DNA from: Tetradesmus obliquus
Taxonomy: Eukaryota; Chlorophyta; Chlorophyceae; Sphaeropleales; Scenedesmaceae
Assembly: GCA_030272155.1 (NCBI GenBank)
Contig: CP126204.1
Span: 4,703,501-4,767,500 of the forward strand
DNA: 64,000 nucleotides
Direction: 5' to 3'
Part shown: in pieces, positions 7,214-62,125 of the stretch
How the letters are laid out: the number at the start of each line of letters is the position of its first letter
How positions within the stretch are numbered: position 1 is the stretch's first letter
Notes under the pieces: generated by a model
What the model was told of the DNA's origin: nothing
What the model saw: the letters and a program-made list of their open reading frames with translations, nothing else
Database searches by the model: none
Program-made: the position numbers and the translations under genes

Positions 7214-10200
7214 ATGGCAGCAGCTACGAGGCCGTATCAGGTGGATATGACAAAAAGAAAATGAATAGTAGCTAGCGGGCTTGCAGGACGATGTGGCAGA
7301 ACGTGTGCACTACTGGTGCTGGGGTGACCACAGGCTGACCGCAGCATCCCGCACTGCAGGTGGTGGTATGGGGCGCCACTGGCTTCACCGGGAGGCTGGT
7401 GTGTGAGCACCTGGTGCGGGACTACCAGGTGAGGGAGGGCAGCCTGTTCCTGCAAGCAGCTGTGCTGGTGCTGGCAGCAGCACAGCAGGTGGCAGCAGCA
7501 GCAGCGTGCATTGCTGCACTGCAGGACAAAACTGTGGCCTTTTTCCAGCTTGATTGTAGCGTAGCGTTTCAAAGACTACTTTAAAATGCATGCTATGTGC
7601 TTCTATTCAATCAAAGTATGTGTGCTGCAGTCCAAGGGCATCCGCTGGGCCATGGCAGGGCGCAACAGGGCCAAGCTGGAGGAGGTGAAGCAGGCGCTGG
7701 CACAGATCGACCCGGCTTGCGCGGTGAGCTGCTGCTGCTGCCTCTGCTGTGGAAATGATGGTCCACTTGGGCTGCTTGCAGCGGGCATGCACGCAGTCGC
7801 ACGCAGTCGTTTGGCGATGAGGTCTGCTGACATGGAGAGGAGTGGGCCCAGGCTGGGCCGCCCAGCCCAGCCTCCTGCTTGCAATGACCAGCAGCTGGAG
7901 TAGATACTGCGTGCGATGCATCCCTGCTGTGGCATACAATTTGGTTGAGTAATGTAATCCAACCTCTTTTGTCTGCACACCCCTCTCCTGCAAACATTTG
8001 CCACCGCGCAGGCTGTCCCTTTTGTCATTGCTGACGCGGATGACGAGGCCAGCCTGGCAAGGCTGGCTGCAGACACAGACGTGATCATCGCCACTGCCGG
8101 GCCCTTTGCCAAGTATGGCAGCAAGGTGGTGGCGGCAGCAGTGGAGGCGGGCACACACTACTGCGACATCACAGGTGGGGCCGGCAGCAGGCAGCAGGCA
8201 GCAGGGACCTGACTGTAGCTGCGTCTGCTCAGAGCATAAGCTGCAGCTCTGCCTCCAGCATGCATTCCAGCGGCAAGTCTGACAGGCCTAGCTGTGTGCT
8301 CAGCAGCTGTGTGGTGCCTGCACCATGTCCTCACTCCAGCTGTGCTGTGTGCTGCTGTCTGTGTGCAACATGCAGTTCAAGGCAAGTATGACGTAACATA
8401 ATCTCAGCTGTGTGGTTGCAGCAATGCGCTGGCTGCGTGGGATGGTGCACTCTGACGTCACCTCCTTGCTGTGCGCGCTGTCTTGTTGCAGGCGAGCTGG
8501 TGTGGGTGAAGCGCATGATCGCTGCGCACCACGAGGCAGCGGCAGCCAAAGGTGTGAAGCTGGTGCACTGCTGCGGCTACGACTCCACACCCTTTGACCT
8601 GGGAGTGCTGCTGCTGGCTGACCACGCGCGCAAGCAGATGGGCAAGTGAGTGCCAGGGCCCTGCAGCCGGGACAGCAGCAGCAGCAGCAGTCGCAGGGGC
8701 AGCAGCATGTGTGGCGGGCCAGCCTCGTGACAGCAGAAGCAGGGGTGGCAATGGCGGCTGCAGCAGCAGCAGACACAGCAAGCAGTGGCAGTAGCAGCTG
8801 GAGCAATGGGAAGAGCAGGGGTTACAGCAGCAGCTGCTGCCGTCTCATGTGTATGCGTTTTGTGTTTCTATCACTGTGCCGCAGGTAGGTGGATCACACA
8901 GGCCGGCGCAGCATGTTGCGTGATTCATTAGGTCACACTGTTTGTTATTGTTGCTGCACACACACCCTCATTCTCACTTGCCGCTCCCGCACCCGCAGGG
9001 CGCTGAGCCAGGCGTACGGGCTGTGTGTTGACGCGCGGGGCGGCTTCAGCGGCGGCACCATCGCCAGCGGCTTCAACCAGGCTGAGAGCGAGGCGCCTGA
9101 AGAGGTTGGCCGCTTCATGAGTGACAAGTACTACCTGTGGCCCAAGGATAAGCAGTGAGTGGCTGCTGGTGCAGATCATAGTATGATGTTTGAGGTAGTG
9201 CTGGTTGCTTTTGTCAAGCGGCTGCAGTGGCGCTCCCTGTGTTGAGTGATCATCACCAGTGCTGGCTTCCCATTTGTACTCGGCGGCACTCAAAACGGCA
9301 TGCATCGCATGTGGGCATGCCCAGGCTTGATGCTGCATCACTGCTCAATGGCATACTATGCTGCCTCAGTCCCTCATCGTGGCTGCTGTGCTGTCTTACC
9401 CTGCCTGCAGGCGTGGCAGCGACAAGCCTCCCGGGCTGCTGCCGGAGTGGAATGAGTACGCCAAGACGTGGATGGGGCCCTTTGTGATGGAGGCCATCAA
9501 CAGCAGGTGAGGGATGCGCTGCAGAGACGGTGTCACAGCGTGTGCAGGATCGTGCAGCGCAGCAGCCTGCTCAACAGGCTGTACGGCCTCTTTGAATAGC
9601 AGCTACCCTGCGCTCATGACCGCCCCACTGCTGCTGTCATCAACACCCCTGCTGCTGCCCCTCATTCAACTTCTCTGCAGGATTGTGCAGCGCAGCAGCC
9701 TGCTCAACGGGCTGTATGGCCCTGACTTCAAGTACAGGGAGGCCATGGCCCCTGGGGGCCTGCTGGGCGCTGCTGCCATGAGCGGCATGATGGCAGGCAT
9801 TGGGGCCATGTTCGCGCTGGCACCACTACGCAACCTGGCCAAGAAGTGAGTGGGGTCACTGCGCTGGTATGATTTGCTTCGGGTCTCCTGCAGTATATAT
9901 GCTTGATGGGTGCTGCTGACATTGCTGCGCAACCTGACCAAGAAGTGCAGTTGCAGGGAGTGCACATGCTGCTCGTCCGTCTGCTGCCGCAACTCACAGC
10001 TGCTGCTGCCTGCTGCGTGCTGCTGCTGCTGTCTCATCAGGCGGCTGCCGCAGCCTGGCGAGGGCCCCACTCGTGAGCTGATGATGGGCGGCTACTGGAA
10101 GCACACCATGGTGGGCCTTACGCAGGAGGAGCCAGGCCAGGCGCCGCAGGTGAGGCGGCACTGCGGTGCTGCTGCTGGGTTAGAGGGCTGGCAGCGGGCC

Positions 10201-10884
10201 AGAGAAAACAGTGGGGCAGGGCCAGAGACCACAAGCAGCATCTTCTTTGTGGCATCTGAGCTGGAAGCTACAGCAGCATGGCTCTGGCTGCAGCAGTTGC
10301 GCGAGACATGCTCATGGTGCCTGACAGGTGTGCCTGCCGCATGCACTGCACTGCTGCCTCCCTTGCCTGCGGCCTCGACATTGTTGCGGAGTGCGCGCAC
10401 ACTCTGCTGCTTGCTTGCGCTCACGCCGACTGCCTCCGCTGCTGCCCCTTGCATGTGGTAACTGCAGGTCATCGTTGCGGAGTGTGCGGACCCAACTCGC
10501 GACCCCGGCTACTGGGGCACTGTGCAAACCGTCTGCTACCTGCTAGTGCTCACGCTGACTGCGTCCGCTGCTTCCATCTTGCTATTGCAGGTCATTGTCG
10601 CGGAGTGCGCCGACCCAGCACGTGACCCCGGCTACTGGGGCACTGCGCGGCTGGTGCTGGAGGCGGGGCTGTGCCTGGCCCTGGACAGCGCAGCATGCAA
10701 AGCCGCCGGCTGCGCTGATGGCGGCGTGCTCACCCCTGCCAGTGCCATGGGCATGGTGCTGGTGCAGCGGCTGCACGGTGCGGGCATCAAGTTTGAGGTC
10801 ACGCAGAGCCCTGCGCTGGGCAAGCAGCAGCAGCAGCAGCAGGTGGAGGTGGAGGCAGTGGCTGCTGGCGCCGGCAAGCAGTAA
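7214..10884 (+). CDS. Saccharopine dehydrogenase-like oxidoreductase (SCCPDH / trans-acting enoyl reductase family)
   Basis: Ten exons, all in phase: 7214-7240, 7360-7428, 7631-7723, 8012-8174, 8492-8645, 8999-9154, 9411-9506, 9681-9845, 10041-10149 and 10591-10884. They encode 441 residues, the normal family length. A Rossmann NAD(P)-binding motif GATGFTG sits at residues 14-20. Further family blocks are AMAGRN, TAGPFAKYG, GTHYCDIT, CGYDSTPFDLG, GGFSGGTIAS, SLLNGLYGPDFKYREAM and PGYWGTARLVLEA. The C-terminus has a short poly-Gln run. Family members are oxidoreductases on lipid-droplet or endomembranes (eukaryotes) or enoyl reductases (bacteria); the substrate here is unknown. Introns 7, 8 and 9 and the 3' flank contain duplicated exon edges. 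A TGTAA at 11835-11839 may be the polyadenylation signal. Confidence 0.9.
9543..9590 (+). repeat. Exon-edge echo: acceptor plus start of exon 8, in intron 7
   Basis: About 47 nt repeat the 3' splice site and first 15 codons of exon 8 (9676-9722) with roughly four to five differences. The lag is 133 bp. Two of the clear codon changes are synonymous (Ile ATT/ATC, Tyr TAT/TAC) and one replaces Gly with Arg. Confidence 0.85.
9917..9951 (+). repeat. Exon-edge echo: end of exon 8, in intron 8
   Basis: The copy repeats the last codons of exon 8 (CGCAACCTG-CCAAGAA, real copy ending at 9845) about 100 bp downstream. The donor is altered from AAGTGAG to AAGTGCAG, so this echo can no longer act as the same 5' splice site. 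Confidence 0.75.
10373..10527 (+). repeat. Two exon-edge echoes of the start of exon 10, in intron 9
   Basis: The acceptor region and first about 20 codons of exon 10 (from 10591) are repeated at 10466-10527, and partly again at 10373-10400, with a lag of about 122 bp. Against exon 10 the nearer copy has synonymous changes at Ile, Val, Cys, Ala and Arg codons and replacements at two Ala codons. A GCAG acceptor is retained. Confidence 0.85.
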
Positions 10885-11171
10885 CTGGGAAGCAGTGGCG
10901 CAAAAGCGGGCACGCGGAGCAGGGTTGGTGGTGCATCAGCTTGCAGGGTGCGGGCGTTGTCGGCTTTGTAGTGCTGAGTGGACTAGTAGCGTGCAGGCGG
11001 AAAACTTGAGTTTTTCACGGCGCATTGAGTGCGCTGCGTTTGATGCGCGTGACTGTTTGTTGCAGTTGCGCAGTTGGTGACAGGCTGGGCATTCTGGGGT
11101 ACCTGTACGCACGGAGCTGCAGCAGCCTCTGCAGAGGCAATGTGTGTGCCTTTGTTGGGGCGGCTCGCACC

Positions 11172-11345
11172 GAGCGGCGTGCTGACCCCTGCCAGTGCCA
11201 TGGGTATGGTGCTGGTGCAGCAGCTGCGCAATGCGGGCATCAAGTTTGAGGTCACGCAGAGCCCTGCGCTGGGCAAGCAGCAGCAGCAGCAGCAGCAGGT
11301 GCAGGTTGAGGCAGCGACTGCGGATGCTGGCAAGCAGTGATAGGG
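11172..11345 (+). repeat. Echo of the 3' half of the terminal exon, including a stop codon
   Basis: About 170 bp, lying 445 bp downstream of the original, repeat exon 10 from about 10727 through its stop. It still reads open in the same frame: LTPASAMGMVLVQ, then GIKFEVTQSPALGK, a poly-Gln run and ...AGKQ-stop. It could serve as an alternative last exon or be a dead duplicate. Confidence 0.85.
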
Positions 11346-11508
11346 AAGCATGGGGCAGGGAGTAGGGTTGTTGGTGCAGCAGCTTGCAGCGTGCGGACGT
11401 TACTGGGCTTCAGTGCTGAGCGGGACTGGCAGCGTGCAGGAGAGAGGTGATGGTTGCATGGCGCAGCAATTGCGCTAATCGTAGTATCGTTGCAGGGTGA
11501 AGCTGCAT

Positions 11509-13619: not shown

Positions 13620-13670
<51 letters not shown>

Positions 13671-21812: not shown

Positions 21813-22023
21813 CTGTACACTACGATTTGCATTCGAAGCTGCTGGAAAGACACTTTGCAACAGCTTAATGTGTGTTACACTACGAGAACACACAATATTC
21901 CATGAAAACAGTAGCATCTGGCAGTGTGCGTACCCTTCAAGACAAGCTGGCAGGCCACCTCATCAACCTACCCGCGCTGCAATCAGCTACAGCTGCAGTT
22001 TGTCAGCGTCCACGCTCATCTGG

Positions 22024-22775
22024 TGTGCAGCCCATGCACCTACTTCTAGTGTGCAGCCCATGCACCTACTTCTAGTGTGCAGCCCATGCACCTACTTCTA
22101 GTGTGCAGCCCATGCACCTACTTCTAGTGTGCAGCCCATGCACCTACTTCTAGTGTGCAGCCCATGCACCTACTTCTAGTGTGCAGCCCATGCACCTACT
22201 TCTAGTGTGCAGCCCATGCACCTACTTCTAGTGTGCAGCCCATGCACCTACTTCTAGTGTGCAGCCCATGCACCTACTTCTAGTGTGCAGCCCATGCACC
22301 TACTTCTGGTGTGCAGCCCATGCACCTACTTCTAGTGTGCAGCCCATGCACCTACTTCTAGTGTGCAGCCCATGCACCTACTTCTAGTGTGCAGCCCATG
22401 CACCTACTTCTAGTGTGCAGCCCATGCACCTACTTCTAGTGTGCAGCCCATGCACCTACTTCTAGTGTGCAGCCCATGCACCTACTTCTAGTGTGCAGCC
22501 CATGCACCTACTTCTAGTGTGCAGCCCATGCACCTACTTCTAGTGTGCAGCCCATGCACCTACTTCTAGTGTGCAGCCCATGCACCTACTTCTAGTGTGC
22601 AGCCCATGCACCTACTTTTAGTGTGCAGCCCATGCACCTACTTCTAGTGTGCAGCCCATGCACCTACTTCTAGTGTGCAGCCCATGCACCTACTTCTAGT
22701 GTGCAGCCCATGCACCTACTTCTAGTGTGCAGCCCATGCACCTACTTCTAGTGTGCAGCCCATGCACCTACTTCT
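22024..22775. repeat. Minisatellite: 26-bp unit, about 29 copies
   Basis: Consecutive units with the core GCAGCCCATGCACCTACTTC run for 752 bp with almost no variation; I noticed two single-base variants. There are no spacers, so it is not a CRISPR array. It begins 211 bp after the CACTA element and ends where the retroposon-like insert begins. Such homogeneity implies recent expansion. Confidence 0.97.
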
Positions 22776-22787
22776 GATGCCGCTTCT

Positions 22788-23714: not shown

Positions 23715-24335
23715 TTCTGATGCCGCTTCTAATGCCTATAGTGCGGCTGGCAGCTCTGCAGCAACGGCAGCCGCAGCCAGCACACACGCAGAGCACAGCT
23801 GTAGCCGCCGTCGCACCATATGGTGCGATGCATGCATGGTTGGCACTCCCGTGGCTGCTGCTCGCATCAAACGCATGGCTGCCACCAAGACAGTCCACCA
23901 CCTCAACAGGGATGCATGGGCCAGCTGCGCAGCCCTGAGCAGCTCAGAAGGCATGTCAGCTGGTACCAGCTCAAACAACACAACCATATGCATCCATGCA
24001 TCCATGCTGATGCTTCCATGACAGTGCACTGCCAACTTTGGTTTAAACCAGCGCTGGCTAGCCGGAGCCGCAGGGTTCTGGCTTGGAACCTTCTTGGTGT
24101 ATAAAATGCAACAGCCGCATGTGTCAGATGCTGCCATCTCTTGAACTGCAACATAATGTTGCCAGTGACAGGCGCACGTGTGCACAGTAGTCTGCAGTTG
24201 GTGGCTGGCTCACACGGCGCATCCTGCACCTGAGGTCTTTGGGTGGGCTGCTTGCCTACCTTGCCACCGGCCTCGACATAGAACATCCTCCAGGCTGGTT
24301 GCAGCTACTGCAAGCTATTAGCTCTCCGCTTCAGC

Positions 24336-24380
24336 CTCAGAAGGTGGACGCGGTGCGCAGGCACGTGCCGGAGTGGTGCT
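24336..24380 (-). repeat. Distant echo of the ADH 3' coding end
   Basis: About 40 nt resemble the last codons of the ADH gene (HSGxCLRT...TF-stop), with several replacements, about 1.1 kb downstream of the real stop. Confidence 0.6.
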
Positions 24381-25302
24381 TGCTGATCGACACGGAGGGG
24401 CATACGTGTACCTGTTCAAGAAAACGTACCAAACCATGGAAAAATAGCCTCGCAGTAAAGTCTTTTGACACAGCGACGCCAAGTATGGCTTGTGTACGAA
24501 GGTGTACCATCCGAGTACTGCTGCCACGGGGAAGCCTGGAGCTGCAACACGCATGGTGTAGAGCGTCGTCGGTGCAGATGCAATTAGCGATGGTAATTAT
24601 ACACAGCCACTTGCACAGGTGGAGCGCTGTCGCTTCTGAAGAGTGCCCACTGTGGTGGTGCCATCCAGTGCTGCTTCTGCTTCCAGCCTACTCAGGCTCA
24701 CAGCACCGTCCAGTTATGCGTTCACTCGCCCAGACAGGACCAGTATAAAGAAAGTTGCCGACCAGTAGAAAGAATTGCAGGACCAAAACGTCACTGCATC
24801 AGTTACCGCGTACCAGCACAGCAGCAGGCACTGTTGCTTCACTACATCAGCCCAGCAACGGAACACAGCCGGAACTGCTTTTTAAAGCAGAATGAATCCG
24901 TCACTGCAATGTCAAAGCACTGCTCCTGTGTGTGCTCTGCTGCTGCCTGCTGAGGACTTTAAGAGTACTTCACAGTAGTCCGCCTTATGGCCTAGCAGCA
25001 GCTCCGCCTGCAGGGGGTGCACTGCTGCCATTCATCTTGATCAAGAGAGGGGCTGCACCACCAAGACAGTCTACCCTCCCCACATATCAGCACCGATGCA
25101 GCTGCAAGGTGCCCTCCATGCACATACAGCTGCAGCTCACATCGCAACCACCATCACCCGCCAAACGGCAGGCGCTCATTCTGCATATGACCATAGCACT
25201 GCGCACTGCACTTTCGCAGGTGGCCCTCGCCAAACGGCCCTAAGCCACCCTTTACAGCTGCAGCTGCGCAGCAGCTGCTGTAGCAGTCCCACTGTGCGCC
25301 TC

Positions 25303-25341
25303 AGAAGGTGAGCACGGTGCGCAAGCACTTGCCGGAGTGCA
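25303..25341 (-). repeat. Near echo of the ADH 3' coding end
   Basis: The copy repeats the last about 12 codons and the TGA of ADH (25422-25460) 120 bp downstream. The changes seen (Leu CTG/TTG, Thr ACA/ACC) are synonymous and the stop is kept. Confidence 0.85.
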
Positions 25342-25421
25342 GCCGTAGTGCTGCGTGTCCAGTCTGGCCCGGCGACTGCCTGTCTTCGTAATGTTGCCAG
25401 GCAAGCCAGGCGACCTCCCCC

Positions 25422-29565
<4,144 letters not shown>

Positions 29566-30306: not shown

Positions 30307-35508
<5,202 letters not shown>

Positions 35509-39079: not shown

Positions 39080-42000
39080 ATGAATGCTTCCAGGGCTACA
39101 GCTGTTGACGATAATATAGGTGGCGGCGATGAAACAACGCATGAACTACTTGAGGCCGTCCTCGCAGGTGAAAGACGGTGGGGTTTCGGCCAGCAACACA
39201 TTCCCTCCATGACTGGGACGCAGCTGAAAGATGTAACCGCTGCCTCTTCTTGTTGATGCAGCTGGCAGATGCAGCCCCCATGTTCTGTTCAGTTTATGCA
39301 GCAGCAGCAAGCAGACGCATAAAGAGGTCCTGCAGTGGCTGAACCAGCAGGAAGCCCAAGTGACAGCGCTGCTAGAAGGAGTGAAAGAGGCTGCGTACGC
39401 TACCACAGCATCCAAGCAACAGAGGTCTGTCCAGGCATTGTGTTGGTTTCTGAATGAAGCTTTGCCCTCTGGTGCTGTTACCAAGCTGCTGCTGCACCCT
39501 GGCCTCATCAGTGGGCTACTGCGCCTCCCCAACTGCCCTCACTGGCTGGCTGCAAGCCTGTGCACGCGTGGCCTACGATGACATAGCAGCAGCTGCATGC
39601 GGCACAGACCGTGTAGCAGGTGCGGCTCCGCCTTGCAGCCTGCGCAAACTCCAGCAGAAATGCCCATGGCCAGCTTAGGACTTGCAGGAACCTTGTTCGG
39701 TGATGCAGCACTGGTGTTGCTGGTCTGTGCAGCCATAGGCACATACTCAAGTGCTCATTAACAACATGAGACGGTATGCACTGTCAATGCAACGTTGACA
39801 GCTGGTATGAATCACACGGGCATGCATGTGCAGCACGTCAGCAAGGTATGTCATGTTGCAACTGTACAGCCTTCAGGCGCCAGTACTACCCACACTGTAC
39901 ATGCTGCTGAAACGCTTGCAACCCTGTGTTTGCTGCTTTTCGCTATGTCTCATCAAAATGTACATGTACGCATGTGTGCAGGGGTTGAGGTGTGTGTCCT
40001 GGCACAGCCGGGCCAGAAAGGCATCGCAGCAGGCATACCAGAAGAAGCACAGCAGCTGCTGCGTCACGGCAAAACACCAGTTGCAGGCGCGCTGCAGGTG
40101 AGCTCCAGCACTATCGGCTGCTGGGTCGACAGCCAGCACCTCTGCTAGCATCCCAGGTCTGCTGCTCCTGGATGTGCTGATGCAACGGTTAAAATCCCCA
40201 CACGCATTGTGTTGTCTCTTGCATGCAGTGACACCCCTTAGCGCTTGTTGCTTCAAGCACCAATATGCTGCTTGCTCTGATAGTATGTCGCTTCACTTGG
40301 TGCGACATACGTTGCTGGTGCCAACAACTGCTTCGGCTAGTAACGCTGCTGGTTTTTGGCCAATGCAGGATGCAGACATGGTGAAGTTGGTTCAGCTTGG
40401 GTTCAACTGCAGCAGCAGAACAACAGCAGCAGCAACAGCAGGGATGCTGCCTCAGCTGCCGTGCCTCACAACCGCTACAGTGGTGGAGCTGCTCGGTACA
40501 GCAATGGCGCGGCACAAAGACAACAATGTGTTGATTCACCTGTGTGCGGCAGTAGCCATTGGCTGGCGCCCTTGTGTACCTTGTCCGCTGTCAGGAGAGC
40601 AGATATCGGTGAGCGGCATCACAAAGGCTTAGTGGGGTGAAGCCCAAACTCGTGCCAATCCTGTGTATGCGCTGCTACGTAGTTTGATGCAGAAGTACCA
40701 AAGCACATGTGCAGAATTCAGAATGCACTGCCGACATGCAGACATGCATTGTAGCATTTGTTAGTTTGACTGATGTTACTAACGTATACAACCACTTACA
40801 CAATTACAACTACGTTGGCTGCTGCTGCTGCCACCTCTGCTGATTTTAGGACGCTTGCATGTCCTCAATCATTCGGCTTAAGCTGAGCAGCAGCATGTCA
40901 GCAACAGCAGCAGCTGCAGCAAGCAAGCTGCTGTACCTGCCGCGTCTGAAAGCTGGTGAAGTGGTTCAGCTGCTGGACACAGCAGTAGCGCAGCACGCAA
41001 TCAACCATGAGCTGGAGCACCTGGCTGCAGCAGCAGCCTATGGCTGGCGCCCTTGTCAGCTGTCAGGGGAGCAGCTGCTTCCGGTGCTGCAGCATGCAAT
41101 AGCACTGGGTGTCCAAGCTCCACATAGTGCGCCCACCATGTTCTGCCACTTACAGAGGCTGCTCGATGTACTGCCAGTCAAACGGATCTCAGCAGACGCA
41201 GTGGCTGGCCTGTTGCACATAGCGATCAAGGCCGGCAGCCACAGCAGCCGCTATGTTCAGCTGGTCGAGCTCCCAGCGTTGCGAGATATCAGCAGATGGC
41301 AGTTGATAGACCTGCTGACAGCTGCTCTGCTGGCACCCAGCAGCAGCTGTGCGTGCGCCCTACACACACTTCGAAAGGTCCGTGCTTTCCGCCAGCTTGA
41401 TTCAGCAGCAGTGACCTCCATCTTTACGAAGGCATTCACAGGAGCAGCAGCTTCACAGACCAACAGCATGTTGCCCAACCTGAGTCGGCTGTGCCAGGAC
41501 CTCCGCCAAGGACATGTGCCTGCAGCAAGAAGCAGCCGTTCCATTACGCAGTGGCTTCTGCCAGTGCTGACTGTGGCATTACCAGCAGGCATGCTTGAAG
41601 AGGCAAGCATCCTCGTGAGCGTGGCAAGAGGGATCACCTTCAGCCCATATGATGTCACGGAGCTGCTGCAAGCAGCACTGCAGCTAGAGAAAACTGGCGC
41701 AGCTTTCATGGCAGTTCTTGAGCTACTGCCATGCACCTGCTTCGAACCTCCTGAGAACAACCTTTGCGACAAGGAAACACTGCAGCTGTTACGATATGTC
41801 AGCCCCCTGCTTGCACAGAGGGTGAGGCACACGCTGGTGCACAGCAGGGGCTGGAGCAACATCAGTGCACAGGACAAGCTAGGTGAGCTGCTGCCGATGC
41901 TGCTGCCCTGGCTGGATCAGACGGAGTGCAAACAGCGACTGCAAGCAGCCAGATTGCCGCCAGGGGCAGCAGCAATCATTGCAGACTCTGTCAGCCGCCT

Positions 42001-45000
42001 TTGGTCATCAGAGGAGCCCAGTGGTCTGACTGACTGTGGCTGCTGGGCACAGCTGCAGGCAGGCAGCCAGGTGCGCTACTGCATGGAGTCATGGTCACAG
42101 ACGTGCGCAGCAGTGCAGCTCAGCGAGGTGTTGCTGCCGGCTGCATCAAGCCCAGGCCAAGATCTACATGTGACCTGCTGCCCAGCACAGCCAGCTGACA
42201 ACACCACAACTACGCTAGGCAGCTGCATGCAGCATGCACCATTCAAGGCATGTCAGACACTCAATGTACCGTGTATGGGCGGCTCAGCAGTGCAGTCTAG
42301 CAAAGCAGCAAGGACAACTGCCAGTTTTTGGGCTGTCAGCTGCCCAGCAGTCGGATTGCCAGTGTCGCAACAGCAGCAGCAGCAGCAGCAGCCTGCTGCA
42401 GCAGCTGGTGCTGTTTGCAGGTCAGCAGCTATGTTGGGCAGCATCAAGCAAGGTGCAAGGTACGCAGCACCACCACCAGCAGCAAGGGATGCGAGTACGA
42501 GGGATAATTGAAGCAGCGCTGCAGGTGGCATGGCAGCAGCAGCAACAGACAGCAGTGCAGAAACAGCCATGCTGCGCCGGCAGCTCTGCGTTGCGGAACA
42601 CTGATACAGCTTCCTTCTGCACTGTTCGCTCAGCAGCGCCTGGCAGCGCACAGGAGGCAGCAGATGGGCAGCTGGTAACGGCACCAGGTGCAATGACAGC
42701 TGCCTTCGTTGCTCCAGCTGGTGGGACTGGCGCTGGTTTGGTTGCTACAGTCCTTGCAGAGGAGCAGGGTGAAGAGGATGCTGCTGGCATTGGCAGCAGC
42801 GCCAAGGTGGCGGCACGTGAGCAGCCTCTACTGCAGGGTGCTGCCTGGGCAAGCGCAGCAGCCGCCTCTGATGGGCACGGTGCTGGCTGGCCGCTACTGC
42901 AGACAGCAGAGCTAGCATTGGCACCACCAGCAGCACCACCAACAGCAGTAGTACAGACTGCAGCATATAAGCCAGCAGCAGTTTGTGGTGTCATGCAGTG
43001 TATTGCTGGGCCTAGCACTGGCCAGCAGCTTGAGAGTGGAGCAGCAGCATCCCACCCTGCAGACGTTCAAGAAGCTAGCGTGCAGCAACCAGCATCCCAT
43101 ATGGACAGCATGTGGCTCAACCGGAGTGAGCTGTGCCAAAGCCTCCGCCTAGGACATGTGGCTTCAGCAAGGAGCAGCGTTGCAACCATGCAGTGGCTGC
43201 TGCCAAAGCTTACCGTGGCGTTACAAGCAGGCAGGCCTGAAGAGGCAAGCAGGTTGATCAGTAAGGCGAGAGGGGTGGTCTTCAGCACAGATGAAGTCAT
43301 GGAGCTGCTGCAGGCAGCACTGCAGCTGGATCCAACTGGCACGGCTTGCCTGGAAGTGCTGGAGCTTCTGCCACGATTCGGCAGCGAACCTGCTGTGAGC
43401 AGCCTCAGTAACCAGCAAGTACTGCAGCTGCTGCGCTGTGCCAGCCCGCTGGTTGGGCAGAGGGTGAAGCACACACTGGTGAACAGCATTGGCTGGAGCA
43501 TCATCAGCGCGCATGACAAGCTGGACGAGATCCTGCCATTGCTGCTGCAGTGGCTGGAACCAATGGAGTGCAAGCAGTGCATGCAAGCAGCCGATTTGCC
43601 AGCTGAGACAGCAGCAGCATTTGCAGATTTTGTCAGCCGCCTGTGGGCAGCGGAGGAGCCCAGTCACCTGGCCGAATGTGGCTGCTGGGCACAGCTGCAG
43701 GCAGGCAGCCAGGTGCGCTGCTGCCCAGCAGCGTCAGGGCCAGTATCATTCTGGCAGCAGTGTGCAGCAGTTCAGCTCAGCAAGGTGTTGCTGCCTGCTT
43801 TTTCAAGCCCAGCCCCAGAGCATGCGACCTGCTGCACGGCACAGCCAGCCAGTGCAACTGCTGCTACGCTAGGCACCTGCATGCAGCAGTCGCCACACAA
43901 GGCACAGCATGGGAGCGGTGTGAAGAGTGTGAGTTATCCGACAGTGCAGTCCAGCAGAGCAGCAATGACAGCAGGAGATGTGGGGCCTGTAAGCTGCCCA
44001 GTGCTTGACTCACCAGCGCGACAGCAGCAGCAGCAGCAGGGAGTAGGCAGCGCGCTTTCATGCTCTGTGCTGGCACGTTTGCAGCTGCCTGAGGACCTTG
44101 CCCAGCTGTCGCAAACAGATGTGATGTATGAACGTACTCCAAACAGCAGCATTGGCTCGCTCCAGAGTCAGCCGTCTCCTCATCAGCAGCACTAGCAACA
44201 GCAGCAGCAGCTGCACGGCATGATGAACTGGGCAGGGGGGAGTTAGAAGCTGCAGCGGCAGCCAACCTGGTTGCTGCTTGGGCTGCTGGTAGCAGCAGCA
44301 GTGTTAACGGTCCTGCTTCTGCAGCACCTGCAGCAGCTGGCTCTGGGCGCAGGTCACCAGCATCCTTGAGCTGCAGCAATCAAGAGCTCCCAGCTCCGCA
44401 GCATCACCAGCAGCAGCAAGGAATGTCAGCGCCAGGGAGCCTCAATGCAGCGCTGCAGGTGGCACGGCAGCAGCAGGCTGGCTGCGCCAGCGGCTCTGCA
44501 TTCTTCAACAGTGAGACATCCTCCATCTGCACAGTCAGCTCAACAGCGCATAGCAACGCACAGGTGTCAGCAGACGGACAGCTGTTGACGGCACCGGGCG
44601 CATCGGCAGCTGCCATTGTCGCTCTTGCTGGTGCGGCTGGCCGTGCGCTTGTTGCTACGGCCATTGCAGAGCAGCAGGGAGAACAGGATGCTGCTGGCGT
44701 AGATGACAGCACCAAGGTTGAGGCAGCAGAGCCGACAGTGAGGCACCTGACTGCTTTTCAAGGCGTGCCAGGCGCATGTGCCCTCTACAGCCAGTGCAAT
44801 GTTGAGCAGCCACTACTGCAGGGCGCTGGCTCAGCAAGAACAGCAGCGGCCTTCTACAGCTCGTATGGTGGTGATCGGCCACCGCAGGGTGCTGGCTTGG
44901 CAAGCACAGCACCTACTTCACTCAGCTGTCATGGTGGTAATCGGCTGCTACTGCATGGTGCTGGCTCGGCAAGCACAGCAGCTGCCTTCTACAGCTCGTA

Positions 45001-45481
45001 CGGTGGTGATCAGCTGCTATTGCATGGTGCTGGCTCGGCAAGCACAGCAGCTGCCTTCTACCGCCCGTACGGTGGAGATCAGCCGCTACAGCAGGCAGCA
45101 GAGCCAGCCGTGGTACCACCAGCATCATCATCAGTACCAGGGCCAGCACCAATAGAGGCTGCAGCATCCAAGCCAGCAGCAGTGGTGGAGCCGACAGCGC
45201 CAGCGGCAGAAGATGAAGAAGACACTGCACCCGCAGCAGCAGAAAGAGAAGATGATGCCAGCGTGCCTGCTGCCAGCGCTGTTCATGGTGCTGGTGGGTC
45301 AGCAATCGGCGGCCTGCTGGAGTCCTTGCTGAAGCCTCTGCTGCAGAAGGGGCAGAAGCAGCAGCAGCAGCAGCAGCAGGTGGCGGGTGAATCTGTACTA
45401 GCAGGCGGCGTGCTGGACAGCGTGGGAGCAGCAAGCACGGCGGCAGTTGCCAGCGCAGCAGTGCAGCACCTGGGCCACTGA
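39080..45481 (+). CDS. Unrecognised, internally duplicated helical/low-complexity protein (possibly more than one gene)
   Basis: Proposed start MNASRATAVDDNIGGG at 39080. Exon 1 (39080-39167) joins in phase to an exon from 39262. A small exon (about 39981-40097) may follow. Exon 40369-40608 and the exon starting at 40850 are tandem copies: both begin D-A-x-M and end near GWRPC..LSGEQ. A 1.6-1.9-kb coding block is then duplicated: 41460-43030 against about 43100-45200. The shared motifs are ELLQAALQL..TG, LELLP, QRV(K/R)HTLV and CGCWAQLQAGSQV. The second copy carries about four 23-residue repeats (AGSASTAAAFYSSYGGD) at 44818-45095. Frames change near 42500 and between 44195 and 44366, probably at introns. 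The C-terminus matches part of the neighbouring VPS9 protein. No known domain is seen and the function is unknown. Confidence 0.55.
44818..45095 (+). repeat. 69-bp coding tandem repeat, four units
   Basis: Four consecutive 23-codon units of the type GAGSASTAAAFYSSYGGD plus a variable QLLLH end, all in frame within the duplicated protein. The middle units differ little at DNA level. Confidence 0.85.
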
Positions 45482-48559: not shown

Positions 48560-51309
48560 GCAGAGGGAAGCTATGAGCTGTGCAGAGATGATGATGCGCA
48601 AAGTAAAGTCACAGGCACAAACTGCAATTTCACAGCGCTGGCCGCCTGCCGCACCAGCTGTATGCGGTGCTACTGTGCACTGTGCCTCACCAGCTGTATG
48701 TGGCATGGTGAGATCTTGAGACGCGACGATGCCACAGCATTGCCGCATATACTGAGCACTGCTACCCACCAACTGAATGTAGTAGTACTGCGCCTCGTTG
48801 AACAGCTGCATGCTATTTGACAAAAACCTCTCACAAAAGCCCGCAAAACAGCAGTTCCCCAAGGCATTGCGTGCCCCGCCGCTCACCAGCTGTATGTAGT
48901 ACTAGTAGTACTGCGCCTCGTTGACCAGCAACATGCTATTTGACAAAGACCTCTCACAAATGCCCGCGAAACAGTATTTCCCGAAGGCACCGCATGCCCC
49001 GCCGCTCACCAGCTGTATGTAGTAGTACTGCGCCTCGCTGACGAGGCGTGCGTGGTAGCGGTAGCGCTCGATGTAGGCCAGGTTGCTGGCCAGGCAGGTG
49101 GGGCGCGCACGAATGACCGCCAGGATGAGCAGCGGCGTGAAGTCGTCAGCGCCTGAGGGCCCCAGCAGCAGCAGCAGCAGCAGCAGCGGCGGCGGCGGAT
49201 CACTTTAGGTTTGAAGCGATGAGGTGCACTGCTGCTGAGCCAGTGACACTTACACGTACTTGGACACGTACACACATGATGCAGGCAGCGGCAGCACAGT
49301 GGAAATGCAACTGCTGCAGCTCGCAAGGCAGCACACAAAATGCAGCAAGCCACAGCACGCGCTGCAAGGCCTGAGTGTATAGGCAGCTGCAGGTACAGCT
49401 GTGCTTGAAGGTTGTTGGCTGTGCTGCACAGTGCTTTGTAACACAGCAGCCTGTGGTCGTCCATCAGGCCGACCAGAGGGGCAAGCGAGGAGCACATGAC
49501 CTGCAGGCAGCGTCCCTGCAGCATTACTCACCGATGCCGTCTGCCGTGCTGCGCGATGTGAGCAGGTTGTTGAGCATGCGGCAGCAGTTGAGGATGCACA
49601 CCAGCTTGTCGCGAGGAGCCTGGCAGCAGCAGCAGCAAGCAGGGCAGCAGCGCAGTCTCAGCGCCTGTTGCTAGGGCTGAGCTGATGCCAAGCATGGCCA
49701 TCGCACCTTGCCAATGAATTGCACAGCAAGCACTGTACTTGGATCGCTGCTTGATTCCACCTGCAGGCATGCTCACTCATCGCACTGACACATCACTCTT
49801 ACTGAATGGCCAGCCGTTTCCCCCCACCTCAACCCTCCCCCACCTCAACGCATGGCTGGCCATACACAGCACACTCAGATCTTGGCAACCCCTCTCCTCC
49901 AATGCCCCACCCACCTTGAAGTTGTTCATCCTGTTGAGCTCCGCAGCAGCGCGTGCCAGGCAGCCCTCATCCACGATGCCATCAGGCACCTCCAGGTGCT
50001 GCGGCTGCACAAAGCCCAGCCCTGTGCAGCGCACCGCCAGCAGCTCATCTCGCTCCACGTCATCGGGGGCCGCCCTGAAGGTGCGCTCATGCAGCTTGGT
50101 CATCAAGTACTTCTCCATGGCCTGCAGGGGCAGTGCAATGAGACACAGCAACGCAACATGCAGTGAGCCACACAGCAGTACACCACTACACGTCAGCTTG
50201 GTCGTCAAGTACTTCTCCATGGCCTGCAGGCGTCAGTTGAAAAACACATTTGTTGCTAGCCTGCCTGCATGTCGTGATGTGTATCCTCTCTCCGTTTGAC
50301 ACAGAGCCGCGGCGCACACATCATGGCCATAATGTACTGTGCTTCATGGCGTGCAGGGCACTCCTTCAATGGCAGCGCATTACAATGTAAGCAACCATGC
50401 TCTCTGTTTGTTTGCATCTCAGCAGCAGCTGTGGCTGCTGCTGCTGCTGTTGCTGTTACGTGCGACACACAGCACTCAAGACACACATGTCATGCTGCCT
50501 GTGGGGTTGCATTTGGGCCGCGCATATGTTGCTGCTGCCGCCGGGCGCACCTCAGTCGCCGCGTCCAGCTCAGCGGGGCTGCTGGCCGCGAACAGTGGGT
50601 GCTTGGCCATGGCCGTCTCCATCTGCTGCAGGAAGCCCTGCGGGGTGAGCAGCAAGCAGCAGCAGCAGCAGCAACAGCAGCAACAGCAGCAACAACAGCA
50701 GCAGCAGGCACGTGCGTGTGTCACTGCCTGGGCCTGCCAATGTTGTGCAGGGTGTTTAGAGCTGTGCTGTACAGCAGGGCAGTTTCGATTACAGCAGGCA
50801 TCATGATGTACAGCTGACATGGAGTCACAATCATGTAAACTTCCAAAGCAAGGGTCAACATGCATGCATTTGCATTCTGCTGCCGCAGCTGTTGCCGCTG
50901 TCCTCACTGGTGCTGCTGCTGTGCTCAGCTGCTGCTGCAGGTGGTTGCACGCACCTGCACTGCCTGGCTGTCAGCCTCCGCATTTGGTGTGCGGTGCTTG
51001 AAATCCTTCATAAAACTGCAGCAGCAGTACCAACAAGCACAGCAGCAGCAGGGGGCTCCATACTTTCAATGCACAGTGCAACAGCAGCGGGACTGAACTG
51101 GGGTTGTGTGGGTGGGATGCAGAAAGTCCCAGCAGCTGCCTCTGGATGCACTGCCGGCTTTGACTGCTGTGCTAAGGCACTCTTGCTCCTCCAACTTACG
51201 TGTTGATGGCTCGCACCAAGTCCTTCGCCTGGTCCATGTTCATGACTTCAATGAACTGGTTGAAAGCCAAAGGCACAGCCGCGTTCTGTGCCGTATCCGG
51301 GTCGGCCAT
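46540..51309 (-). CDS. VPS9-domain Rab5-type guanine nucleotide exchange factor with long low-complexity tail
   Basis: Seven phase-consistent exons on minus: 51309-51200, 51015-50955, 50637-50551, 50121-49915, 49619-49532, 49152-49010 and 48522-46540 (892 residues). Residues 58-250 form a RABEX/VPS9 unit: HPLF....ELDAATE, AMEKYLMTKL, DKLVCILNCCRMLNNLL, GADDFTPLLILAVI, NLAYIERYRYHARL, EAQYYYIQL, AATFIE. This domain catalyses GDP release from Rab5-class GTPases on endosomes. The rest is Gln, Pro and Ala-rich. The C-terminus carries acidic/aromatic and di-leucine motifs (LLESLLEG, LLDSLG, DDDDDLFGDF and a terminal SLLD) that resemble clathrin-box and adaptor-ear ligands. Exon 6's end is echoed in intron 6, and exon 4's start upstream in intron 3. 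It shares a promoter gap with the plus-strand gene at 51713. Confidence 0.88.
48775..49005 (-). repeat. Two echoes of VPS9 exon 6 end with about 117-bp period
   Basis: The unit comprises the end of exon 6 (EAQYYYIQL), its donor and about 75 bp of intron, repeated twice more downstream. The nearer copy has a 6-nt insertion creating a TAG. The farther copy reads NEAQYYYIQL with synonymous changes at Ile and Leu. Shorter traces lie at 48650-48710. Confidence 0.88.
50193..50236 (-). repeat. Echo of VPS9 exon 4 acceptor and start
   Basis: Repeats the acceptor and first 10-11 codons of exon 4 (AMEKYL-TKL) about 102 bp upstream in the gene. One Met-to-Thr change; homology then ends. Confidence 0.85.
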
Positions 51310-51712: not shown

Positions 51713-53111
51713 ATGTTTGCAGCAGTAGGTGTAGCAGGACTCTACCTGCTTCAAGCAGCCGGTGGAGGGCGCCTGACGGAGTTTGGCCGCGGCAGTCAGC
51801 ACACCCAGGAGCAGCAGGCGCACCAGCCACAGCAGCAACACAAGCAGACAGCAGATGCCCTGCCCAGCTCTCCTGCAAAGCTCAGGCCGCAGCAGTTGCC
51901 TCAGGCACGTATCAGGCATGGCTCAGTTGTGTTCTTCCAGGACAAGCGCGGCCAGACAGCACTGGTACAGCCATGCGGCACAGGCCGCAGCACCTGGCAG
52001 ATGGCAGTGACGTGCGCTGCCAGCGGCAGTAGCAGCATGCTGAAAGGTTAGTGGAGAGGGGATATGTGCATGGTTGATATTTGGCCGGCATGCACACAGA
52101 GCATTGTAGCTGACAGTAACGGTGCATTGTTGCGTCCAGTGGCTGCAGTTTTGGTGGAGCAAGCGAGCAAGTGGATAACAGCACAGCGCGAAAGGTGCAT
52201 TGCTGCAGAACATCTGTGTCTCTGCATGTCAGCCAGCAGCAGCGGCATCTGGTGTCTTGGTGCGTGCTCACCACCATCCACACCGCATTGCAATCGAATG
52301 AGTACACTTGCACTGCTTGCCTGCGCATCCTGCTGACTTCTGTTATACCATACACTGCTGTGCTGCTGCAGGCGAGGCTGAGCTGTGCTATGTGCCAGCA
52401 GAGGCGCTGTTCTTGGCAGTGCAGGTCGACAGTGACAGCGGCAGCAGCAACAGCAGCAACATGTTTGCATTCAGGAGCCTGGGGTGAGCAGAGCATTCTG
52501 CGCAAGGCCTCAGCATGCACTGCCATTGCTTGCTGCGCCTGCAGCTGCACTTTTGGACTCGCGCGCGGCTGATGCCACCTTTGGTGCTGACATGTACCAC
52601 CGCAGCTGCACTTGGCCCATGCAGTCAATTGCATTCATTAAGCTGACCGTGTCATGCACCTAGGGCACGTCAACTGCTGCAGCAGGTTTCCTCATGCGCT
52701 ATGCAATGCTGCATGTGCTGTGCTGTGTTGTGTGTGCCTGCGCGCAGCGCTGAGGGGCGCTACCCATCTGCCGGGCAGCCCATGCTGCCAGTTGCATGCA
52801 TAACTCCAACTGACTATGTCGTACAAGCAGGGGGACCTCGCTGCTGTAGCGAGCATTTGTCAGCCGTTGCCCCCTGCATCTGCTGCTCTCTGCGGTGTGT
52901 GCCTTGCTGCAGCGCTGAGGGGCGTTACCTGGCAGCCAGCCGCGACCTCTCCCAACCGCCAGTGCTGGAGGCGCAGCGAGTGACAACGGCAGGGCAGTGG
53001 CGGCTGACGCCTGGCGGCCTTGTCAACGTGCAGCACAGCCACAAGGTGCGGCATGGGCGCTCCACATCTGAGGGCAGCAGAGTGCTCGCAGTGGAGTCAC
53101 GTGTGACCTAA
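51713..53111 (+). CDS. Small protein with a possible beta-trefoil (fascin-like) fold
   Basis: Three phase-consistent exons, 51713-52046, 52372-52483 and 52913-53111, give 214 residues. The ATG at 51713 opens MFAAVGVAGLYLLQAAGG, a possible signal or membrane-proximal segment. A Gln/His-rich spacer follows, then ARIRHGSVVFFQDKRGQTALV and, across exons 2-3, MFAFRSLGAEGRYLAAS..L. Strand patterns such as 'F.FRS..GRYLAA' are typical of fascin/actin-crosslinking beta-trefoils, but the match is by pattern only. A weak echo of exon 3's start lies at 52741-52776. Function unknown. Confidence 0.6.
52741..52776 (+). repeat. Short echo of exon 3 start of the 51713 gene
   Basis: The sequence GCAGCGCTGAGGGGCG, with the acceptor and first codons of exon 3 (real copy at 52909), recurs 165 bp upstream. 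The first four codons match with one synonymous Arg change; similarity then fades. Confidence 0.7.
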
Positions 53112-57721: not shown

Positions 57722-57759
<38 letters not shown>

Positions 57760-58248
57760 GAGTCTGGTGTGGGGTTGTGCGCAGCTCCTCAACACATGCT
57801 GCATGCTGCTGCTGGTGCTGCTGCAGGCATTGCAAAGCAGTCCCAATTTAAGCAATTGGCATGCCTTATGTCAGTCGTCCTCGACGCATCCCCTGCAAGC
57901 TGTACCTGTATCTGCAACACAAGAGCAGAGCACACCCTTATAATCATACATGTATGGAACGTTTGTTGGTTCCCTCCTGTGACGGCGCTGCTCTGCTTGC
58001 TTTGGCTGCACTGCTGCTCTGCAGCCACCGATACTCCTGCTCAGACCTGTCAGACGCAGACAGCGGCAGCACCGCAGGCGGCGACGCTGACGCAGACGCC
58101 ACCAGCAGCAGCCAGCAGCAGGGGCCTGCTGGCAGGAGTGAGGCACGGCAGCACAGGCGCAGGAGTAAGGCTGCTGCAGGCCAGCAGCAGGATGATGCAG
58201 CAGATGCGTCAGCCATTGGTGATGCTGATGCAGACACAGCCAGGTACC

Positions 58249-58285
<37 letters not shown>

Positions 58286-58947: not shown

Positions 58948-59883
58948 TGAGACCAGTGCATCCGCTGCCTGTGAGGTGCAGCGCGCCATGGCGGCTCTTT
59001 ACGCCTGGCGCTGCTAGATGGCGAGTACTGCATGCGGGCCAGCACCTGGTGTTGACGTCGTTGAAACAGCCGGTAGAGTGGCTGGAATGTACGCTGTGCT
59101 TGGCAGCCGAATAACAGCAAACGCTGCTGGGGCTGACCACGCACGTGCCAGGCATAGGCAGCTGTGTGCGTTGAAAAGCAGACCTGGCCCCACCGTTCAT
59201 GTGCACGCCGGCTTGCGTGCCGAACTGTATTTTACACAGGCGGGGCCAGCACACTGCAGCAGAGTATGGAGATGCTGTGTCTTCTGTGCATTGTCTTTGC
59301 TGATCGTCAAGTCCGCAACAGATGTGTTCATGTGGATATATTGACTTAATGGGGAGCAGCTGACGCTTGCCTAGGCACTGCAGGCAAGCTTGGGCCATGC
59401 TAGCATGCGCGGTCACCCCACCGGGTGCTGTGCAGTCTGCAGTAGGTGGATTGCCACTTCCTACGAAGTAAGAGGTTCTGAACATCTGCTTGGACATGAC
59501 CGAACCTCACTACCACGGCGATACCTGCATGGTTTGTTGCAATTGGCTGGGGGTGCGCTGTGGCAGGGTGGCAGTTGTGATTGTAGTTGTTTGCCAAAAC
59601 GTTGACTGTGAAAGCAACAACTGCCGCACAGATCAGCCCCTATTATGATGATTTCATTGTGTTTTGCAGATCTCGCAGACATCCTCTCCACACACGCCGA
59701 TGACAGACGTGCTTTGACCGCGTGGGGGTTCTATGAGCCACTTGCACCCGTCTAAGTGCCTGCCGCCGTGCACGTACGGACGTCAATCAGACCACTAGAT
59801 CTCAACGTGCTTTGAACAGACGCTGCTGCTTGATTCTGCTGTGTGGTGCTAGCTGTTGCTGACGTTCCAAGCAATCAGACAGC
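58948..59883. other. Intergenic region
   Basis: 936 bp between two plus-strand genes with no recognisable coding or RNA gene. Its right part should contain the peroxiredoxin promoter. Confidence 0.4.
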
Positions 59884-62125
59884 ATGCTGGCTCGTGGAGT
59901 AAGTCGCACATGCGTTAGGTGAGCTCAAGCAGAACGCTAGAGTGCACGCAGGTTCGGTAGCACGCTTTTGCCACCCACCAGTGCCTGTCGCACTGCCAGC
60001 CCTTGTTCGTTTAGGCTCTCTCAACGGCCTGAGCGTTGACACACGTCGCTAAAAAGCTGGAAATGTGCACTGTCCAGCAGCAAGCAAGCTTTTGAGCGAT
60101 CACAGGTGTCACCTCGGCCTTTCCTGGCGCTGTCTGTCTCCCTAGCAGCCTGATCACACACAGCTAGCTCATTGGAGGCACTGGAACAGCAGACTGTATC
60201 ACTGAATAGCGATGCTGCGCCGCTGCTGTGCTGCGCAGGGGCAGCAGCAGGCTGGTGCAGCAGGGCATCTTGGCCCGACCAGCAGCTGCCTCCAGGGCCA
60301 GCAGCGTGCGTGCGTACGCGCTGTCGGTGGGGGACAAGCTGCCGGAAACAAAGTTCCGCTACTTTGACAGCGAGGGTAACATGAAGGAGCTGGGCACTGA
60401 GCAGCTGTGCAAGGGCAAGAAGGTGGTGCTGTTTGCTGTGCCTGGCGCGTTCACGCCCACCTGCAGCATGAAGCACCTGCCGGGCTTCATTGAGAAGGCG
60501 GAGGAGATCAAGGTGGGGCGGCTGGCTGGCTGTCTTGGGAGGGGTGAAAGGTGGCCTGGGATGCAGCGTGCTCCTGCAGCTGTGAAAGAGGCAAGGGAGG
60601 GGAGGGGAACAGGGAAGGTTGTCTGGGGCGCAACAATGAAGGTGGGAGAGTCGGAGGGGCTGCCTCAGCTGCAGCATGGTGGCGGCCTGGGACGTGGCAT
60701 GCTGTGGCAGGCAGTGTTGTCATGCTGATTGCACTACAACACAGCGGTGACGGCAGCAGCAGCAGCGGTGCCAGGCAGCAGGGTATGAGCAGGGATCGCC
60801 TGCTTGCTAGTCTGGCAGGCGAACCAGCAGGGTGTGCTGGACGTACAGCAGTGCATGCTTGCAGGATAAGGATATGCAATGCATGCACAGCAATTGCACA
60901 AGTGAGCTGTACGATGCTGCTGTGGCACAGCAGCTTGCGCCGCCTCTGCACAGAGCCTGCAGCCGCGCTCTGTCCCTTCCTGGCTTGCAGCAAGCCGCCT
61001 CAGCTCCTGCTGGCTCCATGGTCTGCCAGGCTGCTGCCTCCATGCCTGTGTGCACATTCATGTTGCCATGCTCTACTGCCTGGCACCTGCACATACTTGA
61101 TCCGGCGCTTGCCTTGCTGACACACATGTAACCTTCCCTTGCACTGCTGGCTCCCTCCGCAGTCTCGCGGCGTGGACGCCATCGGCTGCGTGAGCGTGAA
61201 CGACGCGTTTGTGATGGACGCGTGGGGCAAAAGCGTGGGCGCGGGCGACAAGGTGCTCATGCTGGCGGACGGCAACGGCCAGTTTGCCAAGGCCCTTGGG
61301 GTGGAGCTGGACCTTGCCGACAAGGGCCTGGGGCTGCGCAGCAGGCGCTACGCGCTGCTGGCCGAGGACCAGGTGGGTTGATTTTGGGGGATGCTGCAGC
61401 TGCTGATGGGGAATGGAACACGGCATTGGTGGGAGTGGTGTGCGAGCTGTTGCATAAGGTTTGGCATCTGTGGCGGTGGCAGTGGCAGCAGATGGCGCTA
61501 CGCGCTGCTGGCTGAGGACCAGGTGGGGGCTGCTGGCAAGTTGGTAGTACACCTGGTAACAAAGGGTGTAATGGAAGGCGGTTAGACTGGTGGTGGATGA
61601 GCATCGTGGACAGCGGCAGTGGCAGGCGCTACGCTGTGCTGGGCGAGGACCAGGTGGGTCAGCTGATGCTTGGGCCGTCTGCTGCTGCTGTTGCTGCTGT
61701 GGAGCAGAACAAAAGTACAGCGGGGTTTGGGGTGGGCTGTTGCGTGGCGGGTTTCAGGGTTGGCTTTTGTGGCGGTGACAGCGAAGCAGATGATGTAATT
61801 TCGTGATGGTGTGGGGCTGGGGCTGCTAGCAACCAGTGAAGGTGTGCTATGCTGCATCTGCACTGCTGGTGGTCCATCGCCATCCAGTGCTGGCGATGAT
61901 GGCTGTGCGTGGCCGCTCATCGTTGCTTGCAGGAACTGCGCACAGCTGGCTCTGAGGTTCTTTATGTTGCTGCTGGGTGATACAAGGCACTCACACCTGT
62001 TGTCGCTGCTGCCGCCGCTGCTGCTGCTGCTGCTGCCGCCTCAGGTGGTCAAGGTGCTCAACCTGGAGGAGGGCGGCGCCTTCACAGTCAGCAGCGCAGA
62101 CGCCATCCTGGAGGCGCTGGCTTGA
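59884..62125 (+). CDS. Type II (PRX5-like) peroxiredoxin, probably chloroplast-targeted
   Basis: Exons 59884-59898 (MLARG, strong GTAAGT donor), 60261-60512, 61163-61372 and 62045-62125 join in phase to 185 residues. The first exon is inferred: no in-frame ATG precedes the conserved part of exon 2, and this 15-nt exon supplies one in phase. The N-terminus ([20 protein letters not shown]) is Arg/Ser/Ala-rich like a transit peptide. The peroxidatic Cys73 is in [14 protein letters not shown]. The resolving Cys98 is in [11 protein letters not shown], 25 residues later as in type II enzymes. It reduces H2O2 and alkyl hydroperoxides using glutaredoxin or thioredoxin. Intron 3 contains two echoes of exon 3's end. 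A TGTAA at 62915-62919 may be the polyadenylation signal. Confidence 0.92.
61488..61530 (+). repeat. First echo of peroxiredoxin exon 3 end
   Basis: The last nine codons (RYALLAEDQ) and the GTGGG donor are repeated 148-155 bp downstream, with one difference in the coding part, a synonymous Ala change. Confidence 0.9.
61618..61658 (+). repeat. Second echo of peroxiredoxin exon 3 end
   Basis: The copy reads RYAVLGEDQ with the GTGGGT donor, about 131 bp after the first echo. One changed codon is synonymous and two are mild replacements. The flanking intron, with a GTGGCGGTG-CAG motif, is also partly repeated but more diverged than the exonic part. Confidence 0.88.

Follow-up and report, generated by a model that had tools for sequence, protein, structure and literature searches.

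Direct local copies of exon ends recur across the genome of the green alga Tetradesmus obliquus

The window and its genes

The window analysed here, a stretch of 64,000 nucleotides of the green alga Tetradesmus obliquus (contig CP126204.1, G000:C14:4703501-4767500 in a genome whose 17 contigs total 104,662,953 bases), contains seven genes in which the end of an exon, together with the adjoining splice signal or stop codon, is found again a short distance away in the neighbouring intron or 3' flank. These copies are termed echoes below. The genes are SCCPDH (saccharopine dehydrogenase domain, Pfam), ADH5, PRMT3, a RING-box gene (zf-rbx1, Pfam), a VPS9-like gene (with DUF5601 as its sole Pfam match), the 51713 gene, for which the Pfam search gave no match, and a peroxiredoxin gene (Redoxin, Pfam). 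A Pfam search of 20 single open frames gave none above the cut-off. The names PRMT3 and VPS9 are candidate assignments, made by the first-pass annotation and by our own reading of the sequence. ADH5 was assembled by hand into ten exons separated by nine GT-AG introns, giving a clean protein of 382 residues; among the matches listed, the two best have 97 and 93% identity to it, and the closest of those bearing an organism's name are green algae (85-87%).

Echoes in seven genes

Self-comparison of the window shows repeats at the places named by the first-pass annotation, which had described duplicated exon ends in these seven genes and counted about 18 copies. At 15 hand-set exon edges, 21 echo copies were found at a local score of at least 17, of which three are weak (scores 17, 19 and 19). 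When the same edge queries were compared with the flanks of other genes, a score of 17 was reached in 2 of 184 comparisons and was the maximum. Donor and acceptor edges are both affected, as had been claimed, and in ADH5 the stop codon as well; the echoes lie in introns and, for ADH5, also in the 3' flank beyond the stop codon. They are listed below by window position, with likeness to the source given as a fraction.

9543-9588, plus strand: SCCPDH acceptor echo, upstream (43/46; source edge 9681)
9681-9721, plus strand: SCCPDH exon start, source edge
9915-9947, plus strand: SCCPDH donor echo, downstream (27/33; source edge 9845)
10463-10525, plus strand: SCCPDH acceptor echo, upstream (55/63; source edge 10591)
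27692-27790, minus strand: ADH5 exon 6, source (donor edge 27692)
27575-27623, minus strand: ADH5 exon 6 donor echo 1 (42/49; unit 108 bp)
27467-27511, minus strand: ADH5 exon 6 donor echo 2 (41/45)
25895-25957, minus strand: ADH5 exon 9 donor echo (source edge 26042)
25625-25674, minus strand: ADH5 exon 10 acceptor echo (44/50; source edge 25565)
25299-25343, minus strand: ADH5 echo of the coding sequence end including the stop codon, in the 3' flank (43/45; source 25420-25464)
24335-24375, minus strand: ADH5 echo of the coding sequence end including the stop codon, farther away and more diverged (36/41)
32960-33005, minus strand: PRMT3 donor echo (42/46; source edge 33210)
32166-32251, minus strand: PRMT3 donor echo (source edge 32319)
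31771-31840, minus strand: PRMT3 acceptor echo (source edge 31708)
37392-37441, plus strand: RING-box gene acceptor echo (46/50; source edge 37514)
50194-50230, minus strand: VPS9-like gene acceptor echo (36/37; source edge 50121)
50312-50358, minus strand: VPS9-like gene acceptor echo 2, weak (35/47, score 19)
48767-48801 and 48880-48928, minus strand: VPS9-like gene, two donor echoes (unit 123 bp; source edge 49010)
48652-48678, minus strand: VPS9-like gene donor echo 3, weak (22/27, score 17, a level that the null also reaches)
52709-52764, plus strand: 51713 gene acceptor echo (20/21 at the edge, score 19; source edge 52913)
61488-61527, plus strand: peroxiredoxin gene donor echo 1 (37/40; source edge 61372)
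61622-61659, plus strand: peroxiredoxin gene donor echo 2 (35/38)

The copies in the window differ from their sources by about 3-26%. With queries limited to 60 nt of exon and 8 nt of noncoding sequence, likeness extends 17-60 nt into the exon in the 21 copies; 19 of them lose it after 3-7 nt of noncoding sequence, and the other two reach the 8-nt limit of the query. The scored reach of the ADH5 exon 6 copies is likewise 6 nt, yet their 108-bp units are alike throughout, intron parts included, so a short reach alone is no proof of a sharply bounded copy. In the 51713 gene, the intron part of the 165-bp unit is also alike (z 6.6). On a larger scale, the last SCCPDH coding stretch and its flank are duplicated downstream (10721-11476, shift 453 bp, 71-79% alike).

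Abundance in the sample and in the genome

A sample of 254 kb was made up of the window and 19 loci. Twenty stretches of 10 kb had been taken from other contigs, of which one (L022, G000:C2:700001-710000) consists entirely of N (10,000) and was left out. Gene models came from a home-made, self-trained finder seeded with ADH5 and with an earlier training (4.5% coding). On ADH5 this finder predicted nine of ten exons exactly, a result that cannot count as independent because the finder had been seeded with that gene, and also four spurious exons, three of them at echoes; several echoes were called as exons by it.

The comparison of exon ends with their flanks, which the first-pass annotation had proposed for the whole genome, was run on this sample, using 58-nt edge queries against their own 450-nt flanks at a score of at least 20 (loci L021, L024, L028 and L033 were dropped here and in the window scan below). 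A match was found for 68 of 488 edges (13.9%), against 16 of 1464 comparisons with flanks of other genes (1.1%) and 12 of 488 with reverse-complement flanks. The matching edges comprise 31 of 220 donors, 26 of 221 acceptors and 11 of 47 stop codons. Pieces from exon interiors matched their own flank in 52 of 488 cases; the edge is favoured but not exclusive. In a scan with evenly spaced, overlapping windows, those spanning an edge matched their downstream flank at score 30 in 6.5% of 509 cases, compared with 2.3% of 751 intron, 3.0% of 2092 intergenic, 2.0% of 1169 exon and 3.5% of 256 unclassed windows, and 0.0% of windows matched in the inverted orientation.

Across the genome, the donor word CAGGTGAG is followed by a second CAGGTGAG 92-122 bases later 1,048 times (607 and 441 on the two strands, arrays included). 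The backward pattern occurs 11 times at that distance, a weak control, as donors themselves are common. At 192-222 bases there are 480 pairs genome-wide (backward pattern, 2), many of the 100 listed ones sitting in tight short-unit arrays. The distance contrast is a better control than the backward pattern, and the excess of 1,048 pairs at 100-130 bp over the 480 at 200-230 bp bears out the earlier claim that the process is genome-wide. These results support the conclusion that echoes are recurrent, genome-wide and far above chance. At G000:C1:799004-800002, nine such donors are chained within 1 kb, 114-133 bp apart.

Orientation and spacing

The copies are almost all direct repeats. With L021 and L028 dropped, local pairs at 40-600 bp and at least 34 bits number 287 direct and 5 inverted, a count that includes array pairs, which are not independent. 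Templated insertion of the snap-back or theta type should also yield inverted copies, and the almost exclusively direct orientation argues against it. The distance of 100-170 bp given by the first-pass annotation agrees with the simple repeat families of the sample, in which the start-to-start shift is 80-170 bp in 43 of 67 families (median 123).

Elsewhere in the genome, chains of donors were examined from 31 of 100 listed strings (out of the 1,048 matches), near-identical arrays being left out. In 18 consecutive donor-to-donor units, 102-130 bp apart, identity runs from 0.55 to 0.95 overall and, taken bin by bin along the unit, from 0.68 to 0.82; the three lowest unit pairs (0.55-0.62) may be unrelated. 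By inspection, with no null run, likeness continues into the intron in most units, which is what ordinary tandem duplication would leave.

Sequence change in the copies

In 24 exon-noncoding pairs, differences fall on codon positions 1, 2 and 3 in numbers of 56, 48 and 64. Rates within the aligned blocks are about equal for codon positions (0.16/0.14/0.18) and noncoding bases (0.17), whereas in 26 mixed pairs, some of which are two real exons, noncoding bases are somewhat more changed (0.20, against 0.11/0.12/0.21). The claim that the exonic part of the unit is better conserved therefore stands as regards the extent of likeness (17-60 nt of exon, 3-7 nt of noncoding sequence in 19 of 21 copies) but not as regards identity within the blocks of the 24 pairs. 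Changed codons in these pairs are synonymous in 43 cases and nonsynonymous in 87, a synonymous share of 0.33; random change would give 0.30, and a neutral echo beside a constrained source about 0.46. The mixed pairs gave 106 synonymous against 156 (0.41). A few pairs, such as L026 8208/8442 (6 synonymous to 2), are clearly two real exons, and the pair set is accordingly mixed.

The echoes thus change like neutral DNA, as judged from their codon substitutions. Coding constraint on echoes in general, considered because the ADH5 echoes look synonymous by eye, was rejected on the neutral pooled codon count, as was a gradient of constraint toward the splice site, with 198 differences near and 198 far in 27 pairs. 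Since codon change is neutral and differences are no rarer near the edge, the echoes do not appear, as far as the sequence goes, to be kept as coding spares; a role in splicing alone is conceivable. The first-pass suggestion of a process that makes spare splice junctions as such is not supported: exon-interior pieces echo too, decay is neutral, and, because stop-codon edges also echo, the phenomenon is not splice-specific.

A separate case is a C2-domain-like exon, by our reading, at L026 8917-9263, which has echoes on both sides. By eye, every difference between this exon and the coding part of its acceptor echo is synonymous, one of them being a serine switch (AGC/TCG), so that some echoes may derive from once-coding copies.

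Origin of the copies

We consider the echoes to be relics of small local direct duplications that occur throughout the genome, mostly 80-170 bp apart, and give this reading a probability of roughly 0.55. Such duplications would arise all over the algal genome. Those inside exons would mostly be lost because they wreck the frame, and purely noncoding ones would be tolerated, with both copies drifting and so fading fast. A duplication straddling an edge would be tolerated because splicing, or the first stop codon, could still use the proper copy. That copy would be held by selection and the other would drift neutrally, so that the pair would stay recognisable about 1.6 times longer, with spare splice junctions as by-products. 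The data show copies that are nearly always direct, in excess genome-wide, neutrally decaying and enriched at edges; that they began as tandem duplications and were tolerated by splicing is what we infer.

In simulation, the detectable life of a pair with one constrained copy was 1.56-1.60 times that of a pair with two free copies. In the sample, from which seven arrays, several of them noncoding, had been dropped beforehand, there are 14 noncoding-noncoding, 55 exon-noncoding and 12 exon-exon families, where random shifts of the coordinates by up to 1 kb give 26.4, 42.5 and 12.0, and whole-locus shifts 33.3, 35.7 and 12.0. The ratio of exon-noncoding to noncoding-noncoding families is thus raised 2.4- to 3.5-fold, of which the longer detectable life accounts for 1.6; the remaining excess at edges may come from tolerance, mutation bias or gene-model error.

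This surplus weighs against small tandem duplications as the origin, and so does the geometry of the copies. A spacer of at least 20 nt separates them in 46 of 67 simple families, and it is clearly like the flank (z>2.5) in only 4 of 17 hand-chosen pairs. In 28 of 81 families the alignment ends at an exon edge; 1000 shifts gave 6.3 such families on average and 15 at most. Fifteen families are at least 92% alike: nine touch an edge and have a spacer, three are noncoding, one is exon-exon and two are without spacer. The nine (92-97% alike), taken as the youngest, include one, L036 6717, in which both copies are predicted as exons. Eight of them stop 3-8 nt beyond the edge, and L034 9434 extends 26 nt into the intron. 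Plain tandem units of this age should have spacers roughly 84-94% alike, but a shuffle test of the nine spacers found none that resembles the flank at z 2.5, the best being that of the RING-box gene (z 1.9). In old pairs, a coincidence of ends with edges may reflect the quicker loss of free intron sequence; tandem duplication does not account for the sharp ends of the youngest pairs or for their unrelated spacers.

These observations, together with a spike of donor-side reach at +5 (10 of the 57 values listed, each pair contributing both of its copies), would be expected if copying were directed by the edge itself, through a process tied to RNA, chromatin or break repair that repeatedly places exon ends, running at most some 5 nt beyond the splice signal or as far as the stop codon, about 100-150 bp away in the adjoining intron or flank without the intron. 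If so, introns in this alga would grow partly from their own exons. We think this unlikely, as stop codons are affected too, L034 9434 is among the youngest pairs, tandem units elsewhere in the genome are alike into the intron (by the inspection without a null described above), the short reach in ADH5 exon 6 goes with alike intron parts, and a faint intron likeness is kept in some sharp pairs. The latter emerged from an anchored test for residual likeness beyond the block, which on the noncoding side gave p<0.1 in 9 of 25 hand-chosen pairs (Fisher 0.003), including three of the nine youngest (L034 8774, L034 9434 and the RING-box pair), against 3 of the 25 for the exon side (Fisher 0.92). Sharp functional ends and high identity beside unrelated spacers would also result from concerted evolution, in which the constrained exon would repeatedly convert the exon copies of old tandem duplications as their free intron parts diverge, trimming the block to the exon with its splice signal or stop codon. 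The somewhat clustered differences (p<0.1 in 8 of 28 testable pairs among 31 hand-chosen ones, Fisher 5e-4) are in keeping with conversion, but multi-base mutations can cluster differences as well, conversion between repeats of 40-60 bp is unproven here, and the copies would have to be of great age; we regard this explanation as slightly less likely still.

Staggered double-strand breaks, with overhangs filled in and joined around unrelated filler, would yield direct, spaced copies, and have been proposed as the origin of direct repeats in new Daphnia introns, which these repeats are proposed to lengthen (PMC4202315). The Daphnia repeats are direct and intronic, as here, but measure 4-17 nt against about 30-110 nt here, and such breaks leave unexplained both the ends at exon edges and the scarcity of young pairs that are wholly noncoding (5 of the 24 families alike at 88% or above), which makes them an improbable source. 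Selection for functional spare or decoy splice sites has very little in its favour: the GT or AG beside the edge is kept in most echoes of the seven genes, but the alignments were conditioned on reaching there, and the even spread of differences from the edge to the far end, the neutral codon change and the echoing of stop codons all speak against it. Chance likeness or an assembly artefact can be practically dismissed, given the contrast between own flanks and those of other genes, and given diverged copies with different spacers, which misassembly would not be expected to make.

Relation to known systems

The first-pass annotation knew of no named class for such copies, but tandem genomic duplication crossing an intron-exon boundary has been described in a potato RdRp gene, along with an 83-bp duplication inside an intron (PMC4974935), and is reviewed as a demonstrated route of intron gain (PMC3443670); some novel intron positions in Drosophila have been attributed to it (PMC2891723). 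In the potato gene, as here, an exon edge and its splice signals are duplicated directly and locally, and in all three accounts tandem copies provide a spare GT and AG, as they do here. The potato case is a single young duplication that became a new intron, whereas in the Tetradesmus sample roughly every seventh edge is affected, the echoes adjoin existing introns, and no new intron of the length of the shift is confirmed. Direct repeats of 4-30 bp at or near intron borders, a placement shared with the echoes, have been surveyed and read as insertion scars (PMC11782384). Introners resemble the present case as a genome-wide process acting on introns (PMC9860276), but a genome search with the SCCPDH echo intron, the one intron tested, matched only itself and its own exon, and a dispersed element or introner was rejected for this lack of unlinked copies.

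Of the 267 introns predicted, two have ends more alike than any in the null, which reached 28/50 at most. For PRMT3 31709-31827 (44/50), intron gain was rejected, as it rests on a spurious predicted exon; by our reading, the protein continues from IANCARQ into VVAANKLD once the preceding exon is joined on, which makes 31709-32318 the true intron and the copy upstream an acceptor echo. The other, L026 8356-8457, is a predicted intron of 102 nt with donor and acceptor surroundings alike at 31/50, and is possibly an intron made by duplication.

Small intragenic duplications reportedly also duplicate or activate splice sites; the present copies differ from these in their density, their spacing of roughly 100-150 bp and their sharp ends. 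In a literature search with most subscription journals outside its scope, and in the parts of the sources available to it, no report of such a density of echoes in a green alga was found. Tandem duplication across the intron-exon boundary is thus already known, and the density and the sharp ends are what is unusual here.

Other repeats in the window and the sample

CAG/CTG tracts are very numerous across the window, some lying just upstream of acceptors; CAG tracts took over the first training of the gene finder, and the masked period-3 repeat makes up 3.6% of the sample. The window also contains a 26-nt minisatellite of 29 copies, about 99% alike (22019-22779), an array of 34-nt units with a 104-nt higher-order repeat, 97-99% alike (34697-35044), and a large imperfect duplication with blocks of about 950 and 430 bp, 72-74% alike and shifted by 1.6-2.2 kb (40391-45183), in whose region lies a 69-nt array (44813-45095). 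At locus L020, one noncoding repeat unit occurs in two nearby copies (4872-5059 and 8552-8732), each internally duplicated.

Implications

Echoes can be called as exons, which is a caution for gene finders. The sharp ends of the youngest copies pose a testable question; edge-directed copying or conversion of old copies could each account for them. If about one exon edge in seven has a local copy, the genome holds hundreds of natural cases bearing on the origin of intron sequence and of spare splice sites, and offers a case for studying how splicing distinguishes the correct edge from an almost identical copy some 100 bp off. The alga is thus a good place to study intron growth and the rise of spare splice sites.

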